This document shows, piece after piece, positions 9,936-61,853 of a stretch of 64,000 nucleotides of DNA. Position numbers and translations under genes: made by a program. The stretch lies in assembly GCF_008831285.2 (NCBI RefSeq), contig NC_045138.2, forward strand, positions 4,196,143 to 4,260,142, written 5' to 3'. The stretch's first letter is position 1. Each line of letters begins with the position of its first letter. The notes under the pieces were generated by a model. That model was not told the DNA's origin, ran no database searches, and saw only the letters and a program-made list of their open reading frames with translations. Source of the stretch: Nymphaea colorata. Its lineage: Eukaryota > Streptophyta > Magnoliopsida > Nymphaeales > Nymphaeaceae.

Positions 9936-10426
9936 ATGGCTTTCCTGAGCATCTGGAGTTGATTCGTGTGATTATTCTTGTTCTTTCACAAATCAAAAGC
10001 AGAAAGGCGATTTTTTTGGAGTCTGACTACTTTCGGTGTTAAATACATCTGATTCGGAGATCAAAACGTGTTTTTGATCATTTGAGGAGACAGCTGACGA
10101 GATTCTAAACATTTTGAGCTCTTACTCGCCAAAAACCGTTGAGAAATAAGGGAGAAATCGTTTTTTTGAGGTCCGCTTTCTGTTTTTTCCAGTGTGAAAG
10201 AGGGATTCCGGCGAAACCCGAAGAACCCGGTGTCGTGTTCTTCGTTCTCCAGCGAGTCGGGTGTGTCCTGACAATTCAACCTTCACCGTGTCAGTGCCGG
10301 CTCTTTCAATCTGCCGGCAATACGTTAAACACGCGGTCCCTTCGCCTTCGACTTGGCCTTCGATCCTTCATCGATTTCTTTCATTGGTCTTCATCGATTT
10401 CATTGGCTGTCCTACTCTTATTTACT

Positions 10427-13400
10427 ATGACTGACAGCAATCAATCCAACAGCTCCAACAGTATGAAAGAGGCAGGCGATCAAGGTCATGGAACGCTGAA
10501 AATCACCTCCATTCTCCTCAACAACACCAACTATCTTAGCTGGGCTAAAGCTGCTCGTCTTTTCCTGAGTGGACGATCCAAAGTGGGATACATCAATGGT
10601 CGAATCTCGCCTCCTCCCAAGACCAATCCTAACTATGAGGATTGAATCTGAAAGAGATATGGTAATGGCCTGGCCTACGAATTCCATGGAACCTCACATT
10701 TCGAGTCTATTTCTGTATAAAGAAACTGCGAAAGAAATATGGGATACATTGAAGGAGATGTACAGTGAGCAAAACAACCTTGCTCGTGTGTACCAACTTC
10801 AACTTGATATTGCCAATCTCACCAAAGCCGGCAAGCAGACCGGTCTTTATTTAAACAAGCTCCGCAGCTTGTATGATGAGTTTGCACAATACAGACCGGC
10901 CACTGCTGATGCCGACGTTTATCAAAAAAGGTTTGAGGATGACAAAATTTTCAAAATTCTTGCTGGTCTTGGACCTGATTATGAGAATCTTCGCAGCCAG
11001 ATTCTCATGACTAATCCCTTGCCAAGCTTTAATCAAGTTTGTCAAGCAATTCAAAGAGAAGACACTAGAAAAAAGGTTATGAGCCCGATACCCAAATCAG
11101 AGTTATATGAAGAGGGTCCGGAAAAGATGGCGTGCATAGCTCGGTCTGAACAAAATACGTGGAAAGCTGATTCAAAAAATCAAAGCGGTAGAAACAATCT
11201 CCAATGGAATCGCAGCAACCTCAAATGTACTTATTGCAAAAAAACCGGACACTTTCGAGAAAGATGTTGGGAGCTCGTCGGCAGACCTGTAAGAGAAAAA
11301 CCGGCTGCCCCTTCTCATTCTCCTCAAGTTGATCTTGTTACAAAAGATGATTTAGAGAAATTGTTTCAAAAATTCTCTAAAACAAATCTAGTATCTACTC
11401 ATCCAGTTGGCAATACCAAGGAAGGTAACAATCTTGTTCTCTGTACTCATTCTAATAATTCTATATGGGTTGTTGATATGGGTGCAACTGATCATATGAC
11501 GAATGATGCATCAAGGTTAACTGCGATTGATTGCATGAACAAAAAGCATTCACAGTCGACGGATCACATATTGCTGTTGATGGAACTGGAAAATTTTCAT
11601 TCTTTGAAAACACATCATCTTCAGTCCTTTATGTTCCTAATCTCTCCACTAGTTTGATGTCAGTTAGTAAGTTGACAAAGACTTATAATTGTCTGGCCGT
11701 TTTTTCTCCCAAGAATGTGATATTTTAGGATCTAGAAACGAAAAAGGAGATTGGTAGAGGACGAGAACAAAATGGGTTGTATCTGATGGAAACTCCCGGT
11801 GCTAGCTTTCTCATACATACTAATATGGAAAAGAATAGGCAAGAATACCAAATGTGGCATGCACGACTTGGGCACATTTCGGACAGAAGCTTGAAGATGC
11901 GCATTCCTAATATCGCCACTGACAAACAATCTTGTGATGCTTGCGAATATTCCAAATCTACTAGACTGTCGTTTCAATCATCTATTGAACGATCCACAAA
12001 TTTTTTCGATTTAGTGCATTCTGACGTGTGGGGACCAGCTCCTATGGAATCCTATATGGGATACAGGTACTATGTGTCTTTCATTGAAGATAAATCTCGC
12101 ATGTCATGGATATTCTTTCTTAGAAATAAAAGTGAAGTTTTTAAGACTTTTCAAGACTATTACAATCTTGTTTACACTCAATATGGTGCAAAAATTAAGA
12201 AACGTCGATCTGATAATGGGGGGAATATGTGAATCAACAGTTTGATGAATTCATCAACAAAAAGGGGATTCAACCACAACTTACTTGTTCTGGAACTCCT
12301 CAACAAAACGGGGTGTCAGAAAGGAAAAATAGACAGCTTCTTACTATCGCTCGTGCTCTCATGATTCACATGAATGTACCTCAAACGTTTTGAGCAGAAG
12401 CGATTGGTACTGCTTGTTATCTTGCCAATATAGTTCCAAGTTCTAGCATTGAAAATCAAGTTCCCCTTGAAGTTTTACTTCAAAGGTCGATTTTTGTTAA
12501 GCATTTAAGAATTTTTTGGTGCAAATGCTTTGTGCATATACAAGAAAAATTCCGAAATAAACTTGAGAAACGAGCCTTCAAATGTATTTTTCTTGGGTAC
12601 TCTAGCAAGAAGAAAAGTTATAGCTGTTTTGAACCAAGATCAAGAAAGTTTTTTGTGACTCGGGATGTGAAATTTTTTGAAAGTGAACCTTTCTATGAGG
12701 CACCGAGTCAGGGGGAGACTCACAGGCAAGATCAAGGAACCACTCTGACAGCCCCCACTTCCTCTATTGCATCCACCGATCCTGCTGTTTCCCTTCCCCT
12801 TCCTCTTGTTGATGTTTTTCAAGTTCCAGTTGTTCAAACCCAGAACCAAAACCAGCAATCTAGTAAACTTAGTGAACCTATCATCTTAGAAAACCCAAAT
12901 CAAGATAGTAATCCAAACCAAGATAGCAATTCCCAACCACCGGTGTCACACCATAACCAAACTCTTGAACCGACACTTAGAAGATCAACTCGTCCCTCTA
13001 GACCACCGCCAAAACTAAAAGAGTTCTATACATATCTATCAACCCAACACGTTCATTCCATAGACAACTACACTACCTTTGATACCTTATCCAAACCATA
13101 CCAGTCATATATTCTCAATACCTACTCTCATCATGAACCAAAAAACTACGATAAAACAAGCGCGAATCAAAATTGGCAGATTGCTATGGAAGAAGAGTTG
13201 TCCGCATTAAAGAAGAACAAAACTTGGGAGCTAGTACCGTTGCCCGAAGGGAAGCGAGTCGTTGGATGTAAGTGGGTTTACAAGATAAAATATCATAGTG
13301 ATGGTTCTACAGAACGATACAAAGCTCGTCTCGTTACTAAAGGTTTTACTCAAACCAAATGAGTGGACTACAATGAGACCTTCGCTCTTGTCGCTAAGAT

Positions 13401-14664
13401 GAATACAGTAAGGATTCTCCTATCAGTAGCATCAATCAAGCGGTGGAAACTAGAACAACTTGATGTCAAGAATGCATTTCTTCATGGAGAGCTCAATGAA
13501 GAAGTTTACATGCAAGTTCCTCAAGGCATACAACATAAGAAAGGGTATGTGTGCAAACTAAAAAAGGCACTTTATGGCCTTAAGCAGTGCCCCCGAGCTT
13601 GGTTTTCACGCCTAAGTGAAGCATTGGTTAAAATTGGGTTCAAGCGTAGTAGTGCTGATTATACCATGTTTGTTACTATTAGATCTTCAAAAGTAACCAT
13701 TTTGCTTGTTTATGTAGATGACATCATATTGACAGGTAATGACAAAGATTTCATAGCTCAAGTCAAAATCTATCTAAATCAGCAATTTGAAATCAAAGAT
13801 CTCGAGATCCTACGATACTTCTTGGGTATAGAAGTGACGCATTCCGAAAATGGAATCTTTATATGCCAAAGAAAATACACTTTCGACCTCTTGAAGGAAA
13901 CCGGTTGCCTGGGTGCCAAGGTTGCAGACACGCCCCTTGAAATGAACTGCAAATTGAAGAAAGAAGTAGGGGAAAACATAAAAAACATTCAGAGTTTTCA
14001 AAAGTTGGTTGGAAAGCTTATATACTTGACTGTCACTCGACCGGATATCACATATGCTGTCAGCCTAGTAAATCAATTTATGCACAACCCGAGGTCAAGA
14101 CGTGTCGAAGCTGTTCACAGGATCTCAAGATATTTAAAAGGAACTCCAGAGCAAGGAAACTTGATGAAACGAGATCAGAAAATAGATGTAACTCGATATT
14201 GCGATGCTGACTGGGCAGGGGATCCAAACTGCCGAAAGTCTACATCAGGATATTGTACGTTTGTCGGAAGAAACTTGGTAACTTGGTAAAGCAAAAAATA
14301 GTCAGTGGTGGCTTGATCGAACGCAGAGGCTGAATACAGGGCCATGGCGTCATGTACATGTGAGTTGATATGGATAAAAGCATTGTTCAAAGATATGAAG
14401 ATTGAAATAAGGGAGTCTATGAAGCTTATGTGTGACAACATTGCTGCAATCTACATTGGAGCTAATCATGTTTTTCATGAACTCACTAAGCACATCGAAG
14501 TTGATTGTCACTTTATTAGAGAAAAAATACAAGATGGAACTATTAACACACCACATGTCAAAAGTGAATTTCAACTTGTTGATATCCTTACAAAATCTCT
14601 TGGTAGGGATCGCCATATATATATTATACGCAAGTTGGGGCAGATTGACATCTGCTCACCAACT
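10427..14664 (+). pseudogene. Copia gag-pol remnant
   Basis: The likely gag start is the ATG at 10427 (MTDSNQSNSS). Gag then shifts frame near 10635 and continues to a CCHC knuckle at 11226-11267. The protease site reads DMGATDH at about 11475 instead of the usual D-S/T-G, a loss of the motif serine. Integrase follows (WHARLGH at about 11854, SDVWGPAP at about 12020). It is cut where one extra G in a G run near 12224 shifts the frame before the conserved GGEYVN block. Reverse transcriptase has a TGA at 13360-13362 and then YVDD at 13711-13722. RNase H (CDADWAGDP at about 14200) runs into in-frame stops from 14287. The element cannot make its own proteins. Confidence 0.9.
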
Positions 14665-14676
14665 TGAGGGGGAGAC
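14661..14676 (+). other. Polypurine tract of nested copia element
   Basis: AACTTGAGGGGGAGAC immediately precedes the 3' LTR and serves as the plus-strand priming site. The same AACTTGAGGG core precedes the 3' LTR of the second copia element in this window. Confidence 0.8.
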
Positions 14677-15056
14677 TGTCCGTTACAAAGAGATAAGGAG
14701 GCAATCCACCATATTTGGGAAGGAGATATCTACGATTTGGGTGTTTCCTCAATCAGCACAAATTTGGGCATTTTCCCATATCGACGCCACCTTCTCCATG
14801 ATCGTTGGAATCAATACCAACAAAATCGGCTGGAGGATTTTTCGTAACTCCCTCATAAAGATGTTTCCATCTAAAGGTGTTTGTAACTCTATATAAAGAG
14901 TGAATAACTCCTTTTAATGTGTGTGAAATAATATGAAGAAGTAAGCCCCTTTTTCTCTCGTGGATGTAGGCTACAAGCCGAATCACGTAATATGTTGCCT
15001 TCCTCTGCTTCTTTCTCATCCATACTCTCTATTTCTTCAGTATATTCGTTTTAACA
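14677..15056 (+). repeat. 3' LTR of nested copia element
   Basis: This 380-bp LTR is the partner of 9544-9923, with about 20 mismatches and no gaps by eye. It is followed by the target duplication CCCTC at 15057-15061, after which LINE sequence resumes. Confidence 0.93.
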
Positions 15057-16253
15057 CCCTCTTCAGAACCAATAAGGCCACAGAAAAATTCATCACAGAT
15101 AGATCTAATGTGATTCACATCGTTGATTCTAGTCCCCTCATGTTCCAAGGCAGATGAGGAATTTTTCATTCTACGACCTTTGAGTATTGCTTGGTAGTAA
15201 GCCGTATTACGGTCTCCTTCAACCATCCACTTGACACGAGCTCTTTGCTTCCATAAGTTGTCTTCATCTTCAAGGGAAGCTTGCAATTTTTTTCTAATTA
15301 GAATCTCGTGATTTCTGCCACTGTCTGTAGAAGTCAATTCAAGAGATTGAACTTTGTCAAATTCATCCCTTATCCACACAATTCCTAGCCCAACTAGAGA
15401 GATTAGAGCGAGTGAACTCCAGTTTCTTAATCATCATCATAAGGGGGCATCCAAAAACTCGCAAACTCCAAGCCTCTTGTACAAGATAATTGCATTGTGG
15501 TCTACTGGCCCAGAAATGGAAGTATCTGAACTGAACAAAACGTTTAGGAGGGTTAAGAATGAACCGAGTGGACACTTTGAGAGTGGAGTGGTCAGAAGTC
15601 GTTCTGGGAAGAATACGCAAATTAGTAAAACTGCCCCATTGAGCCTTCCAGACATTATTAATAAATGCCCAGTCTAGCCTGCACAAAATTTCACTCGCAC
15701 CATATCTGTTGTTGCTCCAAGTGAACCTGCGATTAGGGTTAGACAATGGGAACAAGTGGCAATTCGAAGCAAACCTATTAAAAGAAGAACAAGAATTAAG
15801 ATTAGGTTGATGGCCGGTTTTGTCTAATCTGTCAAGCATAGCATTGAAATCCCCTACTAATAACATCGGACCTTGGAAATCAGATAATATGTTCTGCAGG
15901 TACATGAGTGCCCAAACTCTTTCAGTATAACGCAGAGGAAGATAAATACCTCCAACTAGAAAGTTGACATGAGACTGTTTATCAGTGACATCCAAAAGAA
16001 TCCAATACCTATGCATATTAAGGACCAACACAGAGTATCTTTGTGGTTTCCACCCACAAAGGATACGTACCACACCATCGCACATATCAGCATTAGACAT
16101 AGTAGCATATGAGCCAAGCAAACCAAAATTAATGTGGAGCCATTCAACATGAATAAGGGTGTCAAAATGAAAAAGCTATCAATGGCCTCTTGCTGCACAG
16201 TAAGAAGCAAGTCATGCTAGCAGAATATCTAGCTAAGCCATGAATATTTCATG
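15057..16253 (-). pseudogene. LINE ORF2, 5' part (EEP endonuclease and linker to reverse transcriptase)
   Basis: An EEP endonuclease domain runs from about 16253 (degenerate KYSWLS start, usually KxxSWN-RGL) to about 15450. It includes the catalytic GDFNAML block at about 15840-15860, the NRRFTWSN block at about 15725 and the TSDHSTL block at about 15585. The linker between endonuclease and reverse transcriptase follows with RARVKWMVEGDRNTAYY at about 15200, typical of plant L1 ORF2. The copia target site cuts this frame. With the copia element and one copy of CCCTC removed, the minus-strand frame runs on without a break. A stop near 16230 and frameshifts show decay. Confidence 0.85.
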
Positions 16254-16617
16254 CTAAACACTTCATTGAAGGGGATGAGAAACTGTTACCTGGTCAGAAA
16301 CATTACCTTCTCCAACACCAGTAGGAAGGTCACTGATCTAGGATGGTCGGGAGGTGTCTGCAGGACTGCAAGGGCCTCTACCCTGCCATGGCTCACGTGC
16401 TTACGCTTTCCCGCTGGCCCCGTTGGTTCCGAATCGGCAAAACTGTGATTTGTGATATCCTATTAAATTTCCTATGACCAGACAATCTGCTGCCCCTACC
16501 ACGGCTTTGAGTGATTCCCCCTGTTGAGAAAACTTTAAAGTTACCGGCTTGTGGATCAGCGGTATGAACCTCCTCTTGGACATCATGGGGAGCTTTAGTT
16601 AGAGGCTGAGGTTTGTG

Positions 16618-17888
16618 CTAAGAGGGCGATTTGAATGAAAAGCCAGGGGGTATATCAGTAAGCAAACTTCCAATCCGATAGAAGGGGTTAGCCATGTTAG
16701 TCTGGTTCTCTGTCGCGTCCCAAATGATGTCTTTGCCTTTAGCTCTCCTTGTGGTAATGTCATTTCTAGAATCATGGTGAAACATATTCACACGAACTTT
16801 ATTAGTTTTATCCTCAAGAGGCTTGACGTCGTTGATGGTTAAAGGACTTCTCGTTGGTTCTTCATGAGTATCATCTAAGTCCATTAGAGCAGAGAATTGA
16901 TTCTTGGATGTAGATAAACCCTTTTGTTCTACCATAGGCCCTTTGCTTGAGCTGGATGCCTTTAACGAGTTTTTACATTTTGCCGCCTCATGCTGGTAAT
17001 TCCCTTGTCCATGAGAGTCATGCTTGGGCCATTTGTCGGGTGGGTGAGAGTTGACACCGCAAATCCTGTAAAACCGTAATCTCCCTTCATAGAATAAAGG
17101 TTGGGCGAGGGTGTGGCTATCCTTTAGCACAAACTGAAATTCAGGGGGAAGTGGGGCACTCAGAGGAAGCTCAACTCTAATGCGGGCAAAACCTCCTCTA
17201 TTAATATCTCAGGTTTGAGTATCTGTTTCCAAAAGTTTACCCTGAAGACCCTTGGCGATGCTGTTAAAAATCTGCGTTGTCCACATGTTCAGAGGCGAAT
17301 CCGTAGTGGGGCAGAGAGCGCATGCGGCATGTTGAGAGGTTGCCCTGGCTGCCAACGGCAAGTAACAAGAGTCCTGCCTCCAACCCTCCAAGCTCGCTTC
17401 TGAGTGATGCAATTTAGTTGTTGTTCATCCTCAACCCGAATGAGGAAGGTGCCACCAGTGAGGATGGTGAACTTTGGGTTGGCTTTCCCTGTCCATTGCC
17501 TGGTGAGTTCCTGAAAGACAAAGGAGAAATTGGTGCGCCCATTTGGGGAAGAGCCTTGTAACCGAGCCAAAGCTGCCCATTGGAATGGGTGATTCATCTC
17601 ATCATAGGCTTCTTTAGGAATGAAAATTTTGAATCTGCCATCCTGAATCTCCACCTCCAAAAGATGCTCTGGTTGGCTGCCAGCAGAAATCCCTTCAGTA
17701 ATCAATGAAGCCCATGAACGAATACCATGCCCCTGATCCATTTGAATACCAGACGGTGTGGGGGAGCCTCGAACTGGTATTTTTCCTTTTTCAGAAGGAA
17801 AAGAAACTGATCCTTGCAAAGGGAGGAAGTCCTCATCAGATGCCATAGGCATCTCCATGGCCCACGGTCCCCACGGTCCCTCCCCCAC
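16618..17888 (-). pseudogene. LINE ORF1 (DUF4283-like, degenerate zinc knuckle)
   Basis: The ATG-initiated frame at 17888 runs 199 codons and contains a block ending in TCRWQPGQPLNMPH, resembling DUF4283, the RNA-binding-like region of plant LINE ORF1. A second open piece (17130-16618) holds FYRICGVNSHPPDKW, a CCHC-like knuckle missing its last cysteine, then a low-complexity Ser/Lys-rich tail. The pieces are in different frames with stops between them, so the product is not made intact. ORF1 proteins of this type bind the LINE RNA in the ribonucleoprotein. Confidence 0.7.
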
Positions 17889-17956
17889 CCAACGCTAGGG
17901 GAAAGGAACGCTCAGCCTGCCTAATCCCTGGGACCAGCCAAACCCTAGCAGAGACT

Positions 17957-26253: not shown

Positions 26254-27950
26254 GAAGTGATTTCACATTTACCATTAACAAAACCTAAGTAAAAAAATCT
26301 TTTTAAAATCTAAGTGCAAAATCGACTAACGCAATAATACATCATTATTATGGGGAAAAAAACACCTTAACCTAATGACTTTTGTATTCTCTTTGCAGTA
26401 ATTTTAGATACTGTTATATGTTATGTCTTGCACAAGGAATACGGGTACTGGTACGGAAATTTTTTAAATTACAGACATGGAGACACGGCAATGTTGTGTT
26501 TGTGTGTGTGCAAAATTCATTTAAAAATATGCAAATTTCTAGAATAAAATGGAAAACGTCACAAAAATACAATAAAATTACAAAAATTCCACAAAAAAAT
26601 ATGCAAAAGTTTACATAAAACCTGCAAAAATCAACACTGCCATGTCACCATACTCATGTTGGCATATCGGGCATGCCAACAAGGATACTGCAGTTTTCAA
26701 CTATGCCCAGCAGCGGAGTCACATATGGGTAGCTGCCCACACCAGCCCCTCAACATTTTTTTTATTTTCAATTAATATTTTTTAATGTTTGGTTTGTTAT
26801 ATATATGAATGTTCTTTCGAATACGAAAATCTGTGAAAGGTGCTCTTTCCCAAAAAAAAAAAAATCTAGCTTCGTTCCCCAGTGGCTATGTCTGTGTTAC
26901 TTCTTCAACAGTGTATCAGCCAACGGGTCGAATCAGTTGGGCACGACTTCAATTCGAATCAGCCACTTCAGACAAGACTGGTGTTAATGGAAAACCAGAC
27001 TTGGAACCAAATCAGTACCACCCATGAAAAGGTAAGTCCAAAGCCAAAATCATATTCACAGCTGCACATCGAAACCCCGTTCAGGTGGCTTCCATCTCCA
27101 ATTAGAAACACTTGCAGATCCCCATTGCTTTCCTGCAATGCTGAAAGTCGATCACCGTCAACTTAATAACCATTCAGCAACTCCAACCGCTACTGTTCTC
27201 CTGGAAAACTACTTGAACATATTAAAAACGAAAAAATCCATCCCTCCTTTCAGTAGTTCCCAGTTGTCGCTTTCTGAATAAGTGATTTAATGAATATTGA
27301 AAACACCATTACTTGGAATTATGTGATCCCTCATAAGGACGCTTGGTAACAGGAACACTACTGCATTGGTGTTTCATGAAACCACCATAATATCATGAAC
27401 TTGAACCGTGTTCCTGCCACAACTTTTCCATTTCTCACCTGCCCAATTAGCTCTGAGCTGATTGAAAAAACAACACTGCATTACAGCAGCAAACATAACA
27501 TTTGCCTACCGAAGACGATCTCCGGGCCAACGCCATTTTTTCACCTGCCAATAACTCGATTCAGATGTAGCTTCCACTTTGCAGTACCTCTACATTGAGA
27601 TACTCAACAAACCACTAACAAACTCACCCCATCAAGAAAGAAAACCTCGCCCCCTTCCGTTTCGGTGCCCTTTCACAATCGGAAAATGACAGGAAAAATG
27701 AAGAATTACAAGAAAGTGTCACGGCTATCAGCAGCAGCCAGCATAAAGCAGCGAGGTTCTCGTCGTTGTTGCTCATGTATCTTTTTTAATCAATTAATTG
27801 TCTAAATTAGTTGTCTAAAATTAACATTCAAATTACTTAATGTAATAAACAAAAAAGCAAATGAATTCACCCCAGTGCAACAGCAGAGTTCAATCTCTCT
27901 CTCTCTCTCTCTCTGTGCGTGCTTGTGTGCGTGTGTGAAAGAGGGAGAGG

Positions 27951-28250
27951 GAGAGAGATTTGTCTTTTTATATCTATCAGTGATAAAACCACTAATATGC
28001 AAGAATCGTTTTTAAGCTCCCAAAACACCTGCACACACAGAGAGAGAAACAGAGAGAGAGAGAGAGAGATTTGTCTTTTTATATCTATCAGTGATAAAAC
28101 CACTAATATGCAAGAATCGTTTTTAAGCTCCCAAAACACCTGCACACACAGAGAGAGAAACAGAGAGAGAGAGAGAGAGAGAGATTTGTCTTTTTATATC
28201 TATCAGTGATGTAACCACTAATATGCAAGAATCGTTTTTAAGCTCCCAAA
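27951..28250. repeat. Compound tandem repeat, three units of about 111-115 bp
   Basis: A block beginning TTTGTCTTTTTATATCTATC occurs at 27959, 28070 and 28185. The copies are separated by (GA)n runs of different length and the word CACCTGCACACACAG. Copy 3 differs by two bases in GTGATAAAACC (GTGATGTAACC). The unit copies are otherwise nearly identical, so the array is recent or homogenised. It lies 250-550 bp beyond the PMT stop codon, so it may be in the 3' UTR. Confidence 0.92.
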
Positions 28251-28499: not shown

Positions 28500-29784
28500 T
28501 TACATTGAAGACCGGTCTTCTGGCCTCCACATTGATTTCTTGACGCAGAGAAGGCCCTCTTTATCCTGGGAATAAGCCATGCGGACCTCCCATTTCATCG
28601 ATTTAATCAACTCCTTAATCTGATTGATGATCTCAACATTGTCACGAACAATGAACGTGCCCTCTGGCCTCAATATGCGGTCAACCTCAGCAACAACAGA
28701 AGTGACACTGCACCTGCATTAAATATTTCAGATCTGTATGAGAAAGCCCGCAGGGCCGCAAGGCCACGGCTTTGGAACTATGCTAGGAAATGGTCCTATT
28801 GTAGATTCCACAATCGAGGATCTTTATGCTCATACCAACATGCATTAGCCAAAGGACTAACATGTGTCCTTGGACTACCACGTTCATAGACATCGACACA
28901 AAAGAAAGAAAAATAATTCATACGAAATTTTTTGTACACCAAAAAGGAAGTACAAATACGAAATAAAATGGTCAATCTACCTAAAGAAAATCCGCAACTG
29001 TAAAAGAACGAGAACAGTTAATGCGAGAAAGAAAATGGGAATTTCAAAAGTGAGGTAAACTAGTAAAGAATGTAGTTGAAGTCTTTAAGACAGTCTAAAT
29101 GCATTTTCCAAAAGAAATAATCACTGATAAAAAAGACAAAAATATCACTGTAAAGTACACCTAACAAAACATGAAGACCACTGACACCAGGATAGCGAGA
29201 GGTAATATCAAAGATTATAAAGAGAGCTTAATCAGAACAAATACAGGAGAGCACCGGATAAGTTTTGACAAAAACAAGAATATTGATATGGCAACCATAA
29301 AGATGAGAAAATCAAGATTGATTGTTCAAAATTACATCAAAAGGCAAAAATGAAAAACTAAGGTGCCACAATAACACCATTTTGGAAAAACCGATGGAGA
29401 TTAAACCTTGAGAGGTGTACTTGTTAAAATATAAATCCTTCACCAGCACGTTGAAGAGGAGTCTCTTAGGATTCCACCTCCTTGTAGAATGTGTTAAAAT
29501 ATTTAATGTCCTTGTAACATGTGAAGAGTCTCCTAGGATTCTATGTTATAGTTAATATCCTTGTTATATGGGAAGTCTCCTAGGATTCTATGTTGTAGTT
29601 AATATCCTTGTAATATGTGAAGTCTCTTAGGTTTCTATGATGTAATTAATGTCCTTGAAGCTTGTGAAATCTCCTAGGATTCTACGATTGGAGACTCTTA
29701 GAATTCTGAAAATGAGATTATAAATAGAGGCCGTGCAAACCATTTTGGCTACGGCTTCTTCTCCTCAGTTTCTTCTTGTTTTCA

Positions 29785-29835
<51 letters not shown>

Positions 29836-32800
29836 CCTGCTTGAGTGCTGTTTTCGGGTTACAGATATTGGTGCTACATTTCTATCATGGTATCAGAGCG
29901 CCAGGTTACGTTATCTCTACCAAACGAAATGCCCAAACAGGTCTGATCTGGTTAGAACTCTTTTCTCATCTTGTCTCTATCCTGAATTTACTTTTCTCTT
30001 GCGCAATTCTTGTTCCTTTTTTCTTCTTGCTTACCAAGGACACATCTTGTTATATCGTGTCTTCTTTCCCTCTCATCTTCTACCTATATACCATTCTTTT
30101 CTGCTGTCATGGAAAACCTTTCGCATTCTGGCATGTCCTCAAGTTTTCTTCCTCACCTTATTACCGAAAAACTCAACCATGAGAATTATCTGGAAAAGGC
30201 AAATCATGCCTTTCATAAGAAGTCAAGGCCTCTTTGGACATCTCGATGGTTCAACAAAGGCTCCACCAATATCCGTCTTACAGGAAATAAAAAATGAGGC
30301 AGGAGAAGTTATTGCTGTTCATGAAGACAACAATCCTGAACATGCTATGTGGATGAGACGTGATCAAAGTCTGGTTGCGTATATTTTGTCCACTTTATCT
30401 CAACAAGTGTTACTTTCAGTTTCTGATGATTGTACTGCAGAAGAATTATGGGAAACCCTTGCTGATACCTTTTCCCAAATATCAGAAGCTCGAATTATGT
30501 ACTTAAAGAAAGAATTTCAGAATTTGAGCAAAGGTTCAACGTCTATCATGGATTATTTGGGGCGTATTAAGGCCGTCGCAGACCAACTTGCTGCCTCAGG
30601 GAATAACATTTCTGATAAGGAAAAGGTGCAGCAAACCTTGAATGGACTTGGGCATGATTATCATGCTTTTATTACAGCTCTTGAGGTCCTTCCTGTTCTG
30701 CCTTCCTTCAACGAACTACAAGGTAAACTTCTCCAACATGAAATGAATATGAAAAGAGTCATTGAAAGGACTGATCAAGGGAACTCCCAAAATGTGTTGG
30801 CTATGAATGTAAAGTTTGGTAAGAGCCATGGGAACTCCAACCATGGTGGTCGTGGCATTCTACCAACACCACATAACCAAGGTATGTCTCCTTTGGATAC
30901 TTCAAGAAAAATACCAATTTGTTTTCAGTGCAACAAGAAAGGACACATGAAGGCACAATGTTGGTTTAATCCTCAAAATAAAAACAAAGGAGTAAGACAT
31001 GATTATAAACAAGGAGGACAAAGTTCTAAATCCACCGCTGAAGATATGCAACAGCTATTGATGGCCGCATTCTCAAAGATGACTATAAAGCAAAATGAGC
31101 AGGGAGAATGGTTCTTGGATTCAGGTGCAGCTACCCATGTGACAGGAAATGCAGGTAAATTGACTAACTTATCCCCTCATTACGGTAGAAGTTGCATTAT
31201 AACAGGTGATGGAAAATCTCATCCTATTACACATATTGGAAATGCACATATTCCATTGTCATCCTCGTCTCTATCACTGTCTAATGTTGTTCTTGCTCCC
31301 AATATCAAAAAGAACATCATATCCATTTCTAAACTCATTGATGATACAAGCTCTTCTGTTGAATTCACACCTTCTTCTGTCTATGTCAAGGACCTCCAAA
31401 CGAAGAAAATGTTCGCTAGAGGGGAGCGTCAAGGGAATATGTACGTCCTCAAGGAATGTCTACCCAAGGATTCATCCACTTTTGATATAGGATTGAAGAC
31501 ATTTTCTCTTTCTCATAATGCGTCATCAGTGCCAAGTTCTTGCCATTTTCAATCAAAAGTAAGGGGCCCTAACCAATTTTTGGAGTCTGATTTGTGGCAT
31601 AGTCGGCTAGGACACTGTGGTCGACATTTCATTGAAAAACTTGTCACAGATAGTCTCATTCCAAGATCAAGTTTACCTCTTACTTCAAGTGTCAAAAAAT
31701 GTTCAAGTTGTGGACTTTGTAAGAGTCATGTTTTACCTTTCCATAATATAAATCAAAGGGCTTCCAAACCTTTTGAAACTATTTTTTCTGATGTATGGGG
31801 GCCAGCCCCTATTGATTCCATGTCTGGGTCAAGATATTATGTCTTATTCATTGACTCTTACTCACGTTTCACCTGGATTTACTTCATGAAACACAAATCA
31901 GAAGTACCTCACATATTTCGAAACTTCTATGCCATGATTCAAACTAAATTTTCATCCAATGTGGTGCATTTTCAATGTGATGGAGGGGGAGAATATTCCT
32001 CGCTTGATTTTATTGAATTTCTACGTGAAAAAGGGATAACTAGACAAATTTCCTGCCCTTACACACCACAACAAAATGGTGTAGTTGAGCGGAAACATCG
32101 ACATATAGTTGAAAGCGCCATGAGCATGATGCATGATACTAATGTGCCCATTTCCTTGTGGACTGAAGCCTTCCATACTGCTGTATACATAATAAATTGT
32201 TTGCCTATGACACTCTTGATGTCTAAATCGCCATATTTTACACTCTTAGGCAAACAACCTGATTACAAGAACTTGAAGGTTTTTGGTTGTGTATGCTATG
32301 TTCACGTTGATGCTGCCTTGAGGAACAAGTTTCAAGACAAAGCTATTCAATGTAGATTCGTTGGATATGCTGATGAATATAAAGGTTTTCGATGCTATGA
32401 TCCAACAACTAAACGTATCAAAACTTCAAGAAATGTCATTTTTGATGAACATAGTTTTGATAATACAAATGAAATGCCTATGACCATTGAATCTTATGAT
32501 CCCTGGACCAGTACACAGTTATTCAATGCAGATCCTGTTATAGAAAATGATGTGCCTCAAAGTGAAGATTCAGAGAGAGCAATACAACCGTCGGATATGG
32601 CTCAAAGTGAAAATCAAGAAGATCCAACACAGTCATTAAGTCATCACGAAAACAATAATGAACAGAGCAACGATGCACATCGGTATTCGGGTCTTATCTA
32701 CAGTCGACGACTAAGGGACAGAGATGCTCACAGTGAAGAAGACAACATGCCCCACCTTAGAAGATCCCAACGCATTCGTCATCCCATTCACAGGTGGGTT

Positions 32801-34777
32801 AGCTATGATTCTTTATCACTTGATTTTCAGTTATTCATGGCAAAAGTTGGCAAGGAGGAAGAACCTACTTCATTTGATGAAGCATCAAAATCACATCATT
32901 GGAGAAAGGCTATGAAAGAAGAAATGGATGCCTTGCATGAATGTGGAACATGGGAGATCGTTCCGAGGCCACACGAAAAGAACGTAGTGGGCTCCAAATG
33001 GGTATACAAAATTAAATACAAACCTGACGGCAGCATAGAAAGACACAAAGCAAGGTTAGTAGCAAAAGGGTTTACACAACAATATGGAGAAGATTATGAT
33101 GAGACATTCAGCCCTGTGATCAAAATGGGAACAATTCGCGTGATTATATCATTGGCAGTTGAATATGGATGGAGACTACATCAAATGGACGTGAAGAATG
33201 CTTTTCTTCATGGTGATTTAAGGGAGGAAGTATATATGGAACAACCTCCAGGATACACGAAAGGAGACTCTCATGCATGGGTTTGCAAACTAAGAAAATC
33301 TATTTATGGACTTAAACAGGCCTCACGTTCGTGGTTTGACAGTTTCTCTTGCAAGATTCAAGAATGTGGTTTTCGGAGATGTCCTCTAGATCACTCTCTT
33401 TTCATTTATCGAAAGGAAAACATATTTACTTTACTTCTTATATATGTTGATGATATTGTTATCACAGGCAATTCAGAAAAACACATAGAAGAAGCTAAAG
33501 TTTTGATGATGCAAAACTTCAAAATGAAAGAGCTTGGTGATTTACGATTCTTTCTTGGAGTGGAGATTGATAGGCACAATAATCGCCTCACATTGACACA
33601 ACAGAAATACACGTTGGATTTGTTGAAAAAGTCAGGTATGTCTGATTGTAAGCCTGTTGGAACTCCTAGTGTTCTAAATCAAAGACTAAGTGCTCAAGAT
33701 GGGGAGTTATATGAAGATCCTACGCAATATCGAAGTATTGTTGGGGCACTTCAATATCTTACATTTACTAGACCAGATATTATATATGCTGTGAATCAAG
33801 TATCCCAATTTATGCATGCACCTAGAGATACTCACATGGATGCTGTCAAAAGAATATTAAGATATCTTAAAGGGACAGCAGGAGATGGCTTAGTTTATGG
33901 TAAGAGTGAAAATATAACTACTGGACATCAACTTATGACATTCACAGATGCAGATTGGGCTGGAGATCCCGATCAAAGAAAGTCCATTTCTGGTTTTTGT
34001 ATTTTCATTGGACGTAATCTTGTGTCTTGGAGTTGTCGAAAGCAAAAGGCAGTAGCAAGATCCAGCACTGAAGCTGAATACAGATGCATGGCTGCAGGTA
34101 CTGCTGAAGTTACATGGGTTAGACATTTGCTAGAAGACATTGGAGAAAAGATTAAAACATCAATGTTAATGTGCGATAATCAAAGCGCTATTAACATTGC
34201 CTTTAATCCCGTACAACATGGTCGAACAAAGCACATTGAGATTGATCAACACTTTGTTAGACAAAAGGTGGAAGACAAGGAAATTCAGCCTATTTATGTT
34301 CGTACAGATGAACAAGTTGCAGACTTATTTACAAAAGGATTAACAAAGGAACGATTCTGGTTTCTAAAAGGCAAGTTGTACATGGTGCAAAACCATGCAC
34401 AACTTGAGGGAGGGTGTTAAAATATAAATCCTTCACCAGCACGTTGAAGAGGAGTCTCTTAGGATTCCACCTCCTTGTAGAATGTGTTAAAATATTTAAT
34501 GTCCTTGTAACATGTGAAGAGTCTCCTAGGATTCTATGTTATAGTTAATATCCTTGTTATATGGGAAGTCTCCTAGGATTCTATGTTGTAGTTAATATCC
34601 TTGTAATATGTGAAGTCTCTTAGGTTTCTATGATGTAATTAATGTCCTTGAAGCTTGTGAAATCTCCTAGGATTCTACGATTGGAGACTCTTAGAATTCT
34701 GAAAATGAGATTATAAATAGAGGCCGTGCAAACCATTTTGGCTACGGCTTCTTCTCCTCAGTTTCTTCTTGTTTTCA

Positions 34778-34816
<39 letters not shown>

Positions 34817-37800
34817 CCTGCTTGAGTGCTGTTTTCGGGTTACAGATATTGGTGCTACATTTCTATCAGTACTGGGGCGTCTGATAACACCGGATCTTAG
34901 AACGGGGGGTCTAATTTAACAAGAGGTCACCTCATATCCATAGTTCTAAGTTTCTAACAAACTACAGATTTGTGAACCATGGCCTTAAGATCACCATTTT
35001 GTCTCAAATCCATGCATTTCAAAGAGGGGAGATGGGTCTGACTTGAGATACATGGATTTCAAGATGCACAATTTACAAATCCATGGTGTAATCCTTGGAT
35101 CGTTCAAGCATAGGATTTTAGATCCTCGTTAGAAACCAAGGATTTAAAATCTTAGAATATAAGATCCTAAGATCTTAGATCTCCTTGAACACCCCAAAAG
35201 TTGTTTCCCCTAATTGAATATTTACTTCATCTAAGTGTTCAAGTTTATTGAAGAAGCACACTAATTAAAATACAGAACACGGTTAAACAAATCAAACTCA
35301 ACAAGATTCTCAGTGCATGGGAGTGTGTATATTGAAATGTGTGAAAAGGAAGATGGATCCAGTCACTTACTTCTTCAATTTAGAGAAGAGATGATCTGCA
35401 TGAAGGAGGTCGTAGCTTCTGGGATAGGTGTTGAAAGATTCACACCAGTCATGATATATGCCAAAAAGACCACGCTCATAAATGATAGGAAGTGTGTCTG
35501 CTGAGTTAACTGGCACCACATTCATAACCCACAAGTTTACATCTTTCAGGGCAGCAGCAAAGCTGCAAGAAAAATTCCAAATTGTGGTTAGCAAATCAAA
35601 ATTTTACAACTTAAAGAGGTCAGGGAACCTAAAAACAAATGACCAGACGCACGTGCACACCATTTATACTACATCTTATGACTTATAATTACTGATGATC
35701 AAAATGTATAAAGGGGGGAAAAGTTCTCATCCAGATATGGCAACATAATCTCTGTCTGTCAAAATTTAAACACAGTGACAAAACTTCTGAATGACAATCT
35801 CTGAGATCCAGTACTCAATATGCTTCAGTATGGGGTGAAATTTGTGTAAACTAATTAGTACTCAAGATGCTGCTAAACATGTCATTTGACCATCATTCTT
35901 AATATATCAGGATCTAATGTAGGCATATTAACTATGAAGCCCATCAGCCAGGGGCGGCACTAAAAATTTTTCATTAGGGGGCCAAACCATAGTTTCAAAA
36001 TTTTAACAGGGGCCGAAATCTAAGTTCTCAAAATTTCTGTATGGGCTAAATGAAAATTTTGAAAAAGTACGTGTTTTTTTTTTTTAAATTTGAGGAAGGG
36101 CCATTCCCCCTCAACCCTCTGGCTCCGCCCCTGCCAACAGGCATGACAAACAGAACAAACATCAAACTCAGAACATTTTCACATAACATAACATTTCAGA
36201 AAAGAGGCAAAAAAGTTACCAGTGGCAACTGGCAAACAATAAGCAACTGCTAGGTTTGCCATTTTACAGAGCAGTTTACAGGGTTAATCTGTTTTTCCGT
36301 TTCTTTTTCCTTTTTGAAGGAGCAGTGAAAGCATTTTATTCTGTGTATCTAATTGAATGGAGTGCAGTTGCTATTTAAAGTAGAAATGCAACCATACCAA
36401 TAATGAGACCAAGATTATTCTCTTAACGTTACTTGAACATTAGATGTGTCGGGTGTACACAGGGGGCAGAGAGAGAGAGAAAGAGAGAGAGCATTCACTT
36501 ACCCTCCATACACAGCTCTCATGTCCATGACATTCCTGATTCTTGACCAGTTGATTCCCAGACCCTTCAAGTACGATTTGGACACAACCCGTTTCCAGTG
36601 TTCATAATCTGAAGTGAAATCCTCAGGTGCAGCCTTGCCATAAACCCCAGTTTGAGTAGACAGCCAATAAGGTGGATTCTCCAATCTAAGGGGCCATTCT
36701 TCAGGCCACTTTGACCCTCGCTCTGTTGAGGCCACTGGCACCTTGTGCATGCATGCTTGCAATGGAACATACCTATGCATGCCAAATTACAAATTAACAT
36801 CAAAAGCTAAATCTTCAATTCAAATAATAAATAAAAGCAAAGAACTGTCAATGACAATACCATGCTGCATTTGGCTCATCTGATTCCTTGCACATTGGAG
36901 GTTCACTCACAGGTCTGTTCTCATAGCAATCATTAGAAGTAGGCTTCTTAAAAATTGCAGCACCAACTTGGTTCACTCTGTCATACTCAACTTTCTTAAG
37001 ATCCCAGCACATGTCCTTTGTTAGCTTCTTCATGGCTATCAAGTAGTGCAGAACAGATTTATCAGGTATGCATAACATAAAGAGACATTTTTCCTATTAT
37101 CAATAATAGAGGATCTCCTAATAGTTACAGATAATCAAACCCTGTATTCCTGAACTACAATAAAACCATCAGCGAACTATATGCCCCAGATTTCAAAAGG
37201 TGATTTTATGCAGTCACAGAAAAGCAAAGCCTCTAATCAGTTGATCAGCATGCAGTGTTTGAGAACCAAACATGTATTCTGTAAAGATATGCACAGAGAG
37301 AAGCATGAACAAGCATACCCTTCCATATCCCAGCATCTTCTTCATTCTTCTTGTTTTGGTAAACTGGGGTAGCAGACCATACAAAATAACCACCCGGACG
37401 TAACACCCGATTCAACTCAAGCAAAAGCATTCCACCTGTAAGGCACACATAATCAGGTCCTTTTTCTTTTATAGTCGAAGGGAAGGCAGGTAATATTTTT
37501 GGCAATCTCATAAAAATGATATTATGAAAATCTTTCTAGAAAAGAATAGAACAAGGAGAGACAACAGAAAGAAAACTTTAAATAGACAGAAAGGAACCAC
37601 CTTCAATGTGCCAAGGAACCCTACAACGTGCACAGTGGACAACATCAAATACCCTGCTTGGGAATGGCAACCTCTGGGTGCCCATAACCGCTGATATTGC
37701 TGGAATTCCCCGCTCAAGAGCAAACTGCACCTGAGCTTCATGCTCATCCTTGGGAGCAAATGACATTGCAAGCACATCATTGTCAAAAAGATAGCCCCCA

Positions 37801-55255: not shown

Positions 55256-58200
55256 ATGGGATCGGCGACGGCGATCGATTTGAGCCTCACGAAAGTGGAT
55301 AAAACTACCAAATCCGGCAGCTGCGGTCGCCAGAGTTCTACGCGTTCAGGTAAAGCCCTTACTCAGTTTCTTTGCTCGCAGCAGCCTCGCTTCTTCCTTT
55401 GGATTTTGTTTCATCGTTCGTGCGTGTTTTGTTAGTCGCTTTCTTAGGGTTTTTTGTGCGTTTTGCTTTTATTGTTTATGCAATGGGGCGGAGAACAGGA
55501 GGGAAGAAGAAGTCCTCGAAGACGTCGCGGATTTCTGGCAGTAAGCGGACGTCTGAGGCGGCTTCGTTGGAGACGGTTCTTCCCCGGAAGACGCCTAGCC
55601 GGGCCGCGGCCATCGCTTCGCTGCAGAACCTCAAGGAGAAATCCATCCGGTTGCCGGAGAAGCCCGACCTTATCGTCGCCAAGACGGACCGGGTAGTTGA
55701 GGATGAAGTTACTGCCTTAAGGTTGACGGTTGATGGACCTGAGGATGATTCCGGCCTTCCCCAGAGGGGCCTATTTGATTTCATCATCCATGACGAGGAT
55801 GGAGTTGCTCAGCCATTGGAGATGCTCGAAGTGCAGGATCTCTTCGTTTCTAGTCTCGTCCTCCCACAAGGCAAGGGGTCTGCCGATCGATCTTTGGGGG
55901 TCATGTGCGAGGGTTTTGGGCGGATAGAGATGTGGTCAATATCTGGATTTGAGACGGGATCACCAACCGTCTGGGTCGGCACCGAGGTTGCTGAGTACTC
56001 ATGCCTCAAGCCGGCAGGCCTTTACAAGAGGAATTTCGACTTGTTCTTTGACAAGGCCTTGCTGTGTGTTGAAGTGTTCAAGAAGCTCTCGAAGTCATTT
56101 GGAGGAGATCCAAGTATAGGGTTGGAGGAATTGATTGCCGGCACCATCCGGTCGTTGACGGTGAACAAGAGTTTCTCTGGTGGGAACCCAACAAGGGAGT
56201 TCATCGTTTCCCAGGGGGAGTTTGTGTTCAATCAATTAGCGGGACTCGACGAAGATGAGTCTATGATTATGGCAACTATCCAAAATGGCCGTTTCTCAGA
56301 GATGCCTGCATTGATTGCATTGCGAGACGAGTGCAGGCAACTTGGATTTTCGTCATTTAGACCTGCAGGGAGCATAAAAATTAGTGAAAATTCCACTGGT
56401 GGTTCAGTTGATGAGGAGATGGACGAGAGTGAGAAAATGGCTAGGTTACTGCATGAAGAGGAGCTATGGAAGGCGATGAGGCACAAAAATGTGAAATGTC
56501 GTGGTCGTTCTAGAAAGAACGAGTACTATATAAAGATCAACGAATCTGAGATAGCTGCGGATTATCCACTGCCTGCATTTTACAAAGCGTCCGCGGACGA
56601 GACTGATGAGTATCTGTTCTTTGAGGATGATGTTTACATGTTCACTCCTGATATGCTCCCTCGGCGGACTTTACATGATTGGGCTCTTTACAATTCCGAC
56701 TCAAGATTGGTTCCACTGGAGGTTTTGCCCATGCAGCAAGGAACTGAATCTGATGTGCTTATTTTTGGCTCTGGTTACATGCTAGATGATGATGGAAATG
56801 GGTTCTGTGACTATGAAGGAAGTGGTACTGGAGGATCAGATGCAGGTAGCGTGAAGGGGATTCCCGTTTATCTCAGTGCTATCAAGGAATGGATGATTGA
56901 ATTTGGTGGGTCAATGCTATTTGTATCAATCAGGACCGATGGTGCATGGTATCGACTAGGGAAGCCATCAAAGCAGTACGCTCCATGGTTCCAACCTGTT
57001 GTCAAGATTGCCAGGGTTGCCATCTCCATTATCAAAATGCTAAAGAATGAAAGCCGGGTATCCCGCCTTTCCTTTTCTGATGTTGTCAAGAAAGTTGCTG
57101 AGTTGGACAAGTCTGATCCTGCTTTCGTTTTAAGCAGTCCACAAGCAGTCGAGAGATTCGTGGTTGTGCATGGACAAGTAATCCTTCAACAATTTGCTGA
57201 ATTTCCTGATGAGACGATTAGAAAAAGTGCATTCATCAATGGTCTCTTGACAAAGATGGAGCAGATGCGCCACACCAAGCTGGCGATGAAGAAGGTGACA
57301 TTGAAGAGGGAAGCTAATCAGAATCCTGTTGCTGGGTTGAAGCTGGACAGCGTCAGACGGAAGACAATGCAGGCAACTACGACAAAGTTGATCAATCGGA
57401 TTTGGGGTGAATATTATTCAAATTACATGCCTGAGGAGGACGCCCAGAAAGGTGCAGCAGTGGATGAAGCGAAGCCAGGGGAGGAGGAGGAAATGGAAGA
57501 AAACGAGGATGATGAGGATGAAGAGGAGATAGCTGATCTGGCGCCAAAAGCATGTCTGAAGCCTTCTCCTTCATTAAAGTCATCAAGAACCAAGTCCAGA
57601 GCTAGTTTGGCCGAGTGGAAGGGAGTCTCAGTTGGAAATCTGAAATCCGGCGAATCACTTTATCGTGAGGCAATCGTTCGTGGGATTGCCATTGCTGCTG
57701 GTGGTGCTCTGCTGGGGGGAATTGATGACAGGTTGCTTATAGTGTTTATTGAGTACATGTTTGAGAAAGCCAATGGCTTGAAGATGATACATGGCAGGCT
57801 TCTGCAGAGAGGCTCTGAAACTGTGCTTGGTAATGCAGCAAATGGAAGAGAGCTGTTCTTGACAAATGAATGTGTAGACATAGAACTTGAAGATGTGAAG
57901 GAGACAGTAGTGGTGGAACTTCGACGAAGACCTTGGGGGCATGAACACCGAAGGGAGAATGCTGATGCAGATAGACTTGACAGGTTGAGAGCAGAAGAGA
58001 GAGAAAAGAAGGGCTTGCCTACAGAATATTACTGCAGGAGCCTCTATGCACCAGATAGAGGTGCTTTCTTCTGTGTGCCTTATGATACAATGGGATTAGG
58101 GAATGGTTCTTGCTATGCTTGCAGTTTCAGAGAGGCTTGTGTTGAAGACTTCAGCATACTTGCTGGAAAGTCAGGTTTTCTTCACAAGGGAGTGCGATAC

Positions 58201-59039
58201 TCAGTCAATGATTTTCTGTATGTAAATCCACAAGAATTTTCAGCAGAGGCAGAGTTGGACCAGGAGAAGTTTAAGGCAGGTAGGAATGTTGGTCTGAGAG
58301 CATATGTGGTTTGCCAGTTCTTGGGGATAGAAGTCTGCAGTGGGTCGAAGCATGCCGATGCAAAGTCTACAAAGATCAAAGTTCGGAGATTTTTCAGGCC
58401 AGAAGATGTTGGGCAGGAGAAAGCATATGTTGCAGATATCAGAGAAGTATGATCTATGGACTATACTTTCTTATTTGGCTTGTGACTTACATGAGAGTGT
58501 TCTTGGTTGTCAAAACCACCGATGTCTGTGCAACTGGTCAATTTGTAGGAGACTGGGCTTGGGCCTGAAAGATGCCTGGGCCTAGTTGGGCAACTATTTC
58601 ACCCACTAGATCCCAACTGGTCATTGACGGATAGTTGATTGTTTGGGCCCACCACAATTTACATTTGATTATTTTTTTTTTGCAAATTTTTATTTGCCAT
58701 TTCATTGGGTAGAATAACTTTTAGTAAGACTTGCCATACTTTTTTTTGTCTTGTTTTTTGGAATGGATTCTCTCTCTCTCTCCCTTTCTCCATATGTATG
58801 TATGTATGCTGTGTGTATGCATATTATCCAAAGCCAGCCAGCTCACATGAGGACCATGCGATCCATTGTGATGGACATTTAAAAAAAATGAGAAAAAGGT
58901 GATGCCTAATGGATATTTTCAACACCTTTTTTCAATCTTGTTTTTTCTTCTAGTCCATCCTAATAGTTTGGATGACCCTTATGAGGAGCTGGGTGACCTT
59001 GGTTAGTTGAGTCACCATTCACTCTCTCTCCCCCTCTCT

Positions 59040-59071
<32 letters not shown>

Positions 59072-61853
59072 CATTGTAAATATATTTTAGGTCTCCTAAT
59101 CACGATTAGTCTTTTAGAGCCTTGACTGTGGCTTTCAGTTTTGACAATTTATGTTAGCTCATTTGTTTGGTTTTTCCTAATGATCGGTATAGACCATGGC
59201 CATAGCTTGCATTTTTTGACATGCATGATTGTGTATTAGATGAGAGAAATTTTGCTTTTTAAGGTTTAAAATTCATTTCAATGTGAGGGGATGAGTTTTA
59301 CTTGTTGCATTGCATTTATCTGCATAAAACCAAGAAATATATCTTCTTTATTGTTGGATGGATAACCAGAAATGAGTTTCTTGTGATTTTATTAATATTA
59401 GCATGCTTTGATGTCTTGAACTTTTGGAAAAGCTTTGGAATTTGATGTCTTTGTAGTTAGTACTCACAATGTGCTTTATTTACAAATCAAAACTGAACTT
59501 TCTCTGTTGCTCTTTAAGGTTTACTATAGCAATGAGACACGAACCATCCCAGCAGAGAGTGTTGAGGGGAAATGTGAGGTCAGAAAGCAGCATAGTCTCC
59601 CTGATACGCATGCTCCTGCCATCTTTGACCATGTATTCTTTTGCCACTGTATCTATGATCGTGCCAATGGCTCGCTCAAGCAGGTAAAATTTTTGCTCAG
59701 CATATTTACTGACTCTAATTGAACTTCACCCTTGGCTAATGTGCTTTATCTACTAATGTTTAAGCTTGGTCCAGATACTGGGCTTTTCCCTTCTGATTAG
59801 GTGGTTTTGTTTCAATAATGTCATAGTTGCTGCTTGCCTTTTTGCAGTTGCCTGCCTCTGTGCGGTTTGAGTCCTCTAAGGCCAAGGCGAAAGACAAAGG
59901 AAAAGGCATTCAGGGAGAAGAAGAAAGACAGGCAAGTGGCAAAGATGTAGAGGGAGATATTGAAACATCAGAAAGGTTGGCTACCCTTGATATTTTTGCT
60001 GGCTGTGGTGGTCTGTCTGAGGGGTTGCAGCAGTCAGGTAATTCTTTGAGGAAGAAACCTATGACATTGTTCAGTTGTCTTTTGTGAGTTGCAGAATAAT
60101 TTTTCTGTTGTGAATCAGGGGTTTCATTAACTAAGTGGGCTATTGAGTATGATGATGCTGCTGCTGAAGCATTCAAGCTTAACCACAGAGAAGCACAAGT
60201 TTTCAACAAAAACTGCAATGGGATACTGAGGTGACTTAACTCCCCTGTGCTTTTTTTGATTTTTCTTTCTTTCTTTCTTTATTAGAGGTTGCTGGAAAAA
60301 GGAAGGTAATGCACACTGCTAAGTTAACTGTTACATGTTCTTTATTTCTGTTTGGTAAATACTGTGCTACCATTTATTGAAAGGGAGATTTGAGATTTTA
60401 CATATGTGCTCAGCTGTCTTTGAATTTTCCTGATCCTCAGCTGGATCTGTGTATGTTGTTCGATATACCTACATTTCAAATTTTGTACTGCTATCCATGT
60501 ATTAGATTATATTAACTTATAAGTGCATCAAAACGAGCACACTCGAAAAATCCTATTTTTGTTCCACAGTCATTTCAAAGTCTTTTGGCAGGGCAATAAT
60601 GGAAAGGTGTGGTGATAAAGATGACTGCGTTTCTACTCCTGACGCAGCTGACCTTGCAGCCAAACTGAGTGAGGAACAGAAGGAAAACCTGCCTCTTCCT
60701 GGTCAAGTGGGCTTCATTAATGGTGGCCCTCCTTGTCAGGTTTCTATTTTTGTTTTTCTTAAGTCATTTGTTGATCTTGTTCTCCATATACTTATGGGAA
60801 ATGGAGCGAGTGCTGATATGTTTTTTTCCAGGGCTTCTCTGGAATGAATCGTTTCAATCAAAGCACCTGGAGTAAGGTCCAATGTGAAATGATCTTGGCA
60901 TTCCTCTCCTTTGCTGATTACTTCCGGCCAAGGTTCTTTTTGCTGGAGAATGTAAGAAACTTCGTTTCTTTCAACAAGGGGCAGACGTTCAGATTAACAT
61001 TAGCCTCACTTTTGGAGATGGGCTATCAGGTGAAAATTATATTTGTTACTAAATGTTAACATAGGATTTCAGCAGGGAGTCAGATAGCGCTTAGGGCAAG
61101 ACTTCAACTATGCGGTACACACCAACTAGTGAATTACAATTGGTTCCAGCTTCCTAGTCAGCATAAGTTTGTAGCCGCTTATAATAAGCAGTTGGATCTC
61201 CAGCAGTAGACAAATATGCTCTAAATTATGTTGCACCAGCCAGTCTGATGTGTGCTGGTCCGGTGGCCCTACAAATATGCAGGACTGCTATGGATAAAGT
61301 TCTTGCTAAAATATAACACAAGTCTTGGGGAACCAAAATACCTTGTGAATATGTTAGTGGTCAATTCTACAAGTTCTTATCAACAACAGCTTGAACATAT
61401 CTCTAGATGCATTATACTTCTCCCTCATACATCTTTAGGCATGCATTATCTTACGGACATCTATTCTTCAAGAAAATTTCAGTGGTCATCCCGAGATTTA
61501 ACTTCATCTTGGATGCTTTCTCTTAAATGATTCAATCAAGCTTTTGACTTTGGAAATGTTTTCTCTTCCTTCAGGTAAGATTTGGTATCCTGGAGGCTGG
61601 TACGTATGGTGTTGCTCAGTCTCGTAAACGTGCATTCATTTGGGCAGCTTCTCCAAAAGAGACATTACCAGAATGGCCTGAACCTATGCATGTATTTTCA
61701 AGTGCTCAACTGAAAATAACACTTACTGAAGGCTCGTACTATGCTGCTGTGAAAAGTACAGCAGGTGGGGCACCTTTAAGATCCATAACTGTAAAGGACA
61801 CAATTGGAGATCTACCTCCTGTTTCAAATGGAGCAAGCGATCAGAAGATTATG
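55256..61853 (+). CDS. MET1: DNA (cytosine-5)-methyltransferase, MET1/DNMT1 type, first 8 exons (3' end beyond the window)
   Basis: Exons: 55256-55349, 55499-58446, 59519-59683, 59848-60037, 60119-60230, 60592-60739, 60832-61029, 61575-61853. All have GT-AG introns and matching phases, giving 1378 codons so far. In order: two RFTS replication-foci domains (residues about 100-280 and 380-610), an acidic stretch (about 690-712), BAH1 (about 745-855), BAH2 (about 870-1050), a short Lys-Gly linker, then the C5 methylase with motif I DIFAGCGG (about 1117), motif IV GGPPCQGFS with the catalytic Cys at about 1218, motif [10 protein letters not shown] (about 1256) and motif [13 protein letters not shown] (about 1300). 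The target recognition region and motifs IX-X must follow beyond 64000. Family role: copies CG methylation onto new DNA with VIM/UHRF partners in the nucleus. An alternative start at 55482, inside intron 1, is also in frame. Confidence 0.95.

Follow-up and report, generated by a model that had tools for sequence, protein, structure and literature searches.

A recent antisense copia insertion in the last intron of a Methyltransf_29 gene of Nymphaea colorata and its cohort of near-identical copies

A 64-kb stretch of the Nymphaea colorata genome (hereafter the window; C1:4196143-4260142 of a 407.8-Mb genome in 783 contigs) was examined, and relatives of the retrotransposon it carries were sought in the same genome. 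The results lead us, with considerable confidence, to an account in which a copia family with about 200 5' LTR-primer binding site junctions recently sent a copy, in antisense orientation, into the final intron of a Methyltransf_29 gene; this copy is most likely a non-autonomous member of a cohort of close relatives, and the gene is most likely spliced to full length.

The inserted sequence is a 5,447-bp Ty1/copia element with exact edges, located where it was originally predicted to be, and it has an internal region of 4,527 bp (Table 1). Its two LTRs align over 424 bp without a single substitution or gap; the aligned bases form two stretches outside a CT tract that counts 21 units in the 5' LTR and 15 in the 3' LTR. 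The original prediction had described LTRs identical apart from the length of this tract, a perfect GTACT duplication and, on that basis, a very young insertion that an LTR alignment with many differences would call into question; the alignment shows no difference outside the tract, the duplication is exact at both edges, and the claim of youth stands. Because the 424 identical bases, in two stretches, flank a unit that encodes gag, integrase and RVT_2 in copia order, chance is excluded as their source. Direct LTRs bounded by TG and CA, a 5-bp target-site duplication (TSD) and an integrase ahead of reverse transcriptase (RT) all place the element in copia, and Pfam finds the same order along the open frame (gag PF14223 at 204-352, integrase PF00665 at 688-789, RT PF07727, or RVT_2, at 1083-1323). 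The Pfam output contains no separate RNase H match, and the C-terminal residues are RNase H-like by eye only. The primer binding site is presumably a match to initiator tRNA-Met, and the 47-bp tandem units that both LTRs contain in their upstream part are perhaps enhancer-like.

Table 1. Positions in the window of the element, its parts and the surrounding gene and repeat.
Feature	Position	Strand	Basis
Exon 8 (last) of host gene, Methyltransf_29 profile 443-505, acceptor TGCAG	28503..28713	-	Pfam
Last intron of host gene, 6,657 bp with element	28714..35370	-	splice-site mapping
Left target-site duplication GTACT	29417..29421	.	sequence
5' LTR, 466 bp, TG...CA	29422..29887	+	LTR comparison
47-bp x 3.9 tandem repeat (about four units), upstream part of each LTR	29499-29684 and 34492-34677		tandem-repeat scan
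Long open frame, most of gag and pol (PF14223, PF13976, PF00665, PF25597, PF07727)	29702..34420	+	ORF list, Pfam
TATAAA in 5' LTR	29719	+	sequence
(CT)21 tract in 5' LTR	29789-29830	+	sequence
Primer binding site TGGTATCAGAGC	29888..29899	+	sequence adjoining 5' LTR
gag start codon and its frame, 62 residues, frameshifted	30109..30297	+	ORF reading
Site of private 5-bp gag deletion, microhomology at junction	30188..30193	+	sibling comparison
Polypurine tract GAGGGAGGG, directly 5' of 3' LTR	34406..34414	+	sequence
3' LTR, 454 bp, as 5' LTR except (CT)15	34415..34868	+	LTR comparison
Right target-site duplication GTACT	34869..34873	.	sequence
MITE-like dispersed repeat, older, starting at TSD edge	34874..35190 (end approximate)	.	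genome matches
Exon 7 region, Methyltransf_29 profile 377-442, 3' end exact at donor GTAAGT, 5' end approximate	35371..35603	-	Pfam

A similarity search with the window LTR, in which 40 of 497 candidates were scored, gave the 30 best loci for comparison, assigned by neighboring sequence as 16 5' LTRs and 14 3' LTRs; since these loci were picked for their similarity to the window LTR, they do not represent the older part of the family or its overall age. Twenty-two of the 30 pair into 11 elements (8 loci are unpaired), none of which has a substitution between its two LTRs. Outside the CT tract the 20 LTRs of ten of these elements, the window copy among them, are identical, and both LTRs of the eleventh lie 3 substitutions from the shared sequence. 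The target-site duplication is a perfect 5 bp in 10 of the 11 and 4 bp in the C12 copy, and the flanks are unrelated, with a top ungapped identity over 60 bp of 40% among the 16 5' flanks and 37% among the 14 3' flanks. These separate duplications and unrelated flanks indicate separate insertions rather than segmental copies.

The uniformity extends into the internal region, which was compared between the window copy and ten siblings in three overlapping pieces, each kept separate. Five siblings (C12, C1:8.99M, C9, C2:11.5M and C4:3.59M) have 0 substitutions relative to the window copy, and the others have 1 (two siblings), 2 (two siblings) or 7 (one sibling). The window copy has no substitution of its own, since at every position at least one sibling agrees with it; the sibling with 7 is one of the ten copies with identical LTRs, and the source of the cohort was thus not wholly uniform. 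The search for identical family members therefore succeeded, with at least nine near-identical sister copies, and the window copy is most likely one of a cohort of ten or more that would descend from one nearly uniform source sequence. More broadly, a pattern spanning the LTR-primer binding site junction occurs at 207 places in the genome with at most 2 mismatches (88 of them exact; 0 for a reversed control), a number that counts 5' ends and is neither a full-length nor a solo-LTR count.

The sibling at C4:3585947-3591394 has 0 internal substitutions relative to the window copy, yet its LTRs share 3 substitutions against those of the other pairs, a mismatch that template switching during reverse transcription might explain. 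Three of the 16 5' loci (L018, L023 and L028) differ within the 14 bases that make up and adjoin the primer binding site (29888-29901 in the window), the region where tRNA-primed copying ends.

The absence of LTR substitutions, the perfect duplication and the internal identity with five of ten siblings support a very recent insertion. With 0 changes in 5,375 sites, the 95% upper bound on the age of the window copy is about 80,000 generations, assuming 7e-9 mutations per site per generation, or about 43,000 years, assuming 1.3e-8 per site per year. From its two LTRs by themselves, again under an assumed rate, the bound would rise to about 505,000 generations. The insertion may be far younger than these bounds. 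The CT tract is no sign of age, because its counts can be altered by reverse-transcription slippage, later microsatellite mutation or assembly error, and in 6 of the 11 substitution-free pairs the two LTRs have unequal counts. If reads confirm the tract, this hypervariable part of the LTR could date insertions that are too young for substitution counts.

The window copy differs from its relatives in gag. The original prediction had described an open pol frame, and pol is indeed open (29702-34420), but the intact copy that this implied was not found, since a 5-bp deletion that the prediction missed shifts the gag frame. The start codon at 30109 and the remainder of gag-pol lie in different frames, and gag-pol open from its start codon, the mark of an autonomous copy, is not what the window copy has, as the frame stops after 62 residues. 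Among the 16 5' loci compared the gap is found in the window copy alone, and each of the other 15 has an open frame of at least 426 residues, counted from the gag start codon to the end of the stretch compared. The 30-base sequence spanning the deletion junction occurs once in the 407.8-Mb genome, at the window locus, so no other copy in the assembly bears the broken version of gag. In agreement, the internal region of the window copy is 5 bp shorter than that of nine of its ten paired siblings (4,532 bp); that of the tenth measures 4,530 bp, owing to its own 2-bp change at the primer binding site. Since what follows the private deletion is no longer in frame with the gag start codon, the window copy is probably non-autonomous, although an in-frame ATG further downstream in the long open frame makes a shortened gag-pol product possible.

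Both the apparent youth of the insertion and its broken gag depend on the assembly of near-identical repeats, which are prone to consensus errors, and the differences in CT count, seen in more than half of the pairs, as well as the 5-bp gap could be errors of this kind. One alternative is thus that the insertion is older, and that gene conversion or the assembly itself made LTRs and siblings look identical. This we regard as highly improbable: each copy has flanks and a duplication of its own, and the uniformity spans 4.5 kb of internal sequence while the private deletion and the substitutions of five of the ten siblings persist within it, when a homogenizing assembly would tend to erase such differences. 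A second concern, that the gap is itself an assembly error and the window copy as open as its siblings, draws on the gap being the sole internal difference from five of the ten siblings, and is improbable to a lesser degree. The gap is absent from every other 5' locus compared, and a loss of 5 bp exceeds the usual consensus error of one base.

On the reading we prefer, that of a young copy with a real deletion, one nearly uniform copia sequence would have made the cohort of at least ten copies very recently, and the window copy would have been reverse-transcribed and integrated with the proteins of intact siblings. The deletion may date from slippage while this copy was being reverse-transcribed, in which case the copy was 'dead on arrival', or it may have arisen after insertion. 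The host gene would then splice across the element to give a full-length mRNA, aided by the antisense orientation, and silencing of the element might help the gene tolerate it.

The gene in question lies on the minus strand, antisense to the element on the plus strand. Eight exon pieces of the gene were found, and all four of the exon translations submitted to Pfam matched Methyltransf_29 (PF03141); we take the gene to be a PMT-type putative methyltransferase. Without the element and one copy of the duplication the last intron measures 1,205 bp, to which the insertion adds 5,452 bp, close to the predicted expansion from 1.2 to 6.7 kb. The splice sites, also predicted to be intact on both sides, are so: the donor GTAAGT has its G at 35370, and the acceptor AG (within TGCAG) ends at 28714. 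In the Pfam profile, exon 7 ends at position 442 and exon 8 takes over at 443, and the reading frames of the two meet correctly. No such insertion separates the matching exons in three paralogs of the gene within this genome, where the gaps between matched pieces measure about 1.55, 0.09 and 0.6 kb; being paralogs, these genes do not date the event. A 111-bp x 2.8 tandem array (27939-28250; tandem-repeat scan) lies just past the 3' end of the gene.

These intact sites also bear on whether the insertion damages the gene, such that transcripts end or splice wrongly within the element and the allele is a partial knock-out. The strand of the element that reads in gene sense contains AATAAA twice and ATTAAA four times, and, according to PMC6668482, all four genic ATCOPIA93 insertions studied in the Arabidopsis line epiRIL 394 were accompanied by lower transcript levels at F8, in the active phase of the element. 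The same paper reports that two of these insertions were intronic and truncated transcripts at F8, and that neither truncation was still seen at F16, a generation in which the copies were methylated. In the window, moreover, donor and acceptor are undisturbed, the frame joins correctly, and the antisense orientation should keep the polyadenylation signals of the LTRs outside the sense transcript. Damage to the gene is accordingly an unlikely outcome in our judgement, and splicing to full length is the reading we retain.

Traces of an unoccupied site were sought within the assembly. The left flank (28719-29421) matched only itself in the genome, and the right flank (34874-35700) was full length only at its own locus among the 44 matches listed. 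The joined flanks, compared with four loci (L042-L045), matched two of them in the right flank only, one starting at most 2 bases from the insertion edge (L044) and the other further in (L045), and neither is a related empty site. The absence from the assembly of an empty-site haplotype, for which both flanks were searched, bears neither for nor against polymorphism of the insertion. The right flank opens with an older MITE-like repeat that has at least 40 other pieces in the genome at 67-85% identity (40 of 68 candidates scored, its own locus and three exon matches excluded). As the immediate right flank is a dispersed repeat, single copy holds for the locus as a whole only. Two distinct loci (L049 and L050) start at most 2 bases from the edge of this repeat at the copia duplication, and no target duplication of the repeat's own was found.

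Other members of the cohort also lie in genes. Flank proteins were chosen by eye in two sets, with Pfam matches for 6 of 10 in one and 7 of 10 in the other, the latter including four exons of the window gene and one MET1-type ORF. A sibling at C2:11.52M (L062, L063) is antisense inside a gene with COG2_N on one side and COG2_C on the other, and another at C4:20.7M (L068, L069) is antisense in a DAO-family gene whose Pfam profile continues across the element; both sites appear to be introns. The target-site duplication of the COG2 sibling is GTACT, as in the window copy. All three genic copies with Pfam support are therefore antisense, and the C12 sibling is possibly a fourth case, in sense orientation in what we take to be a tetraspanin-like gene, without a Pfam match. 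Three siblings are apparently nested in other copia elements: those at C4:6.78M and C1:8.99M have RVT_2 on one side, with the other side judged by eye, and the one at C1:33.95M has RVT_2 on one side and SH3_retrovirus on the other. Eleven sites are too few for a claim of enrichment in genes. The prediction that the family may still be mobile gains plausibility from the near-identical cohort. We offer only as a tentative suggestion, somewhat less likely than its opposite, that the family is transposing now in this plant lineage, mainly from one dominant source, with broken copies carried in trans and genic copies mostly antisense.

Events of this kind are well known and in that sense ordinary; the freshness of the insertion and its cohort are above average, and the window copy is broken in gag. 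The behavior, though not a lineage placement, recalls ATCOPIA93/Evade, an Arabidopsis Ty1/copia element that likewise inserts in or near genes; in its bursts, as in those of VANDAL21, 99% of insertions match one source copy each, according to PMC6668482. In that source, exons are favored and activity was observed directly, whereas the activity of the window family is deduced from sequence. COPIA-R7, in intron 1 of Arabidopsis RPP7, is also a copia element inside an intron of a working gene, and PMC7529245 describes a dependence of full-length RPP7 mRNA on H3K9me2 and EDM2, with a read-through model. There, in contrast to the antisense element of the window, transcripts of the gene receive a polyadenylation site from the 5' LTR (PMC7529245). 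An Arabidopsis survey of intragenic transposable elements (TEs; PMC4417168) likewise found intronic TEs in genes, with heterochromatic marks kept within transcribed genes; most of those TEs were shorter than intergenic ones, whereas the window element is full length and very recent. A recent Copia-rich burst reported for N. minuta, in that species (PMC13254204), would fit the recent cohort found here. Among the paper titles listed in a literature search, none concerns this insertion or its copia family. The ten or more copies with identical LTRs provide a handle for following a copia family with recent activity in a plant that is not one of the usual models. The methyltransferase gene, whose intron has only recently taken up 5.4 kb of antisense element, offers a clean natural experiment on the tolerance of a gene to such an insertion.

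Elsewhere in the window, about 20 kb from the element, lies a gene of the MET1/DNMT1 type (55354-58452 and about 60500-61925), identified by PF12047 and BAH matches in Pfam, with its catalytic exons recognized by eye; enzymes of this type maintain TE silencing. A second, decayed copia element on the plus strand, with several breaks (10118-14667), is followed by LINE-like ORFs on the minus strand (15029-17894), both recognized by eye.
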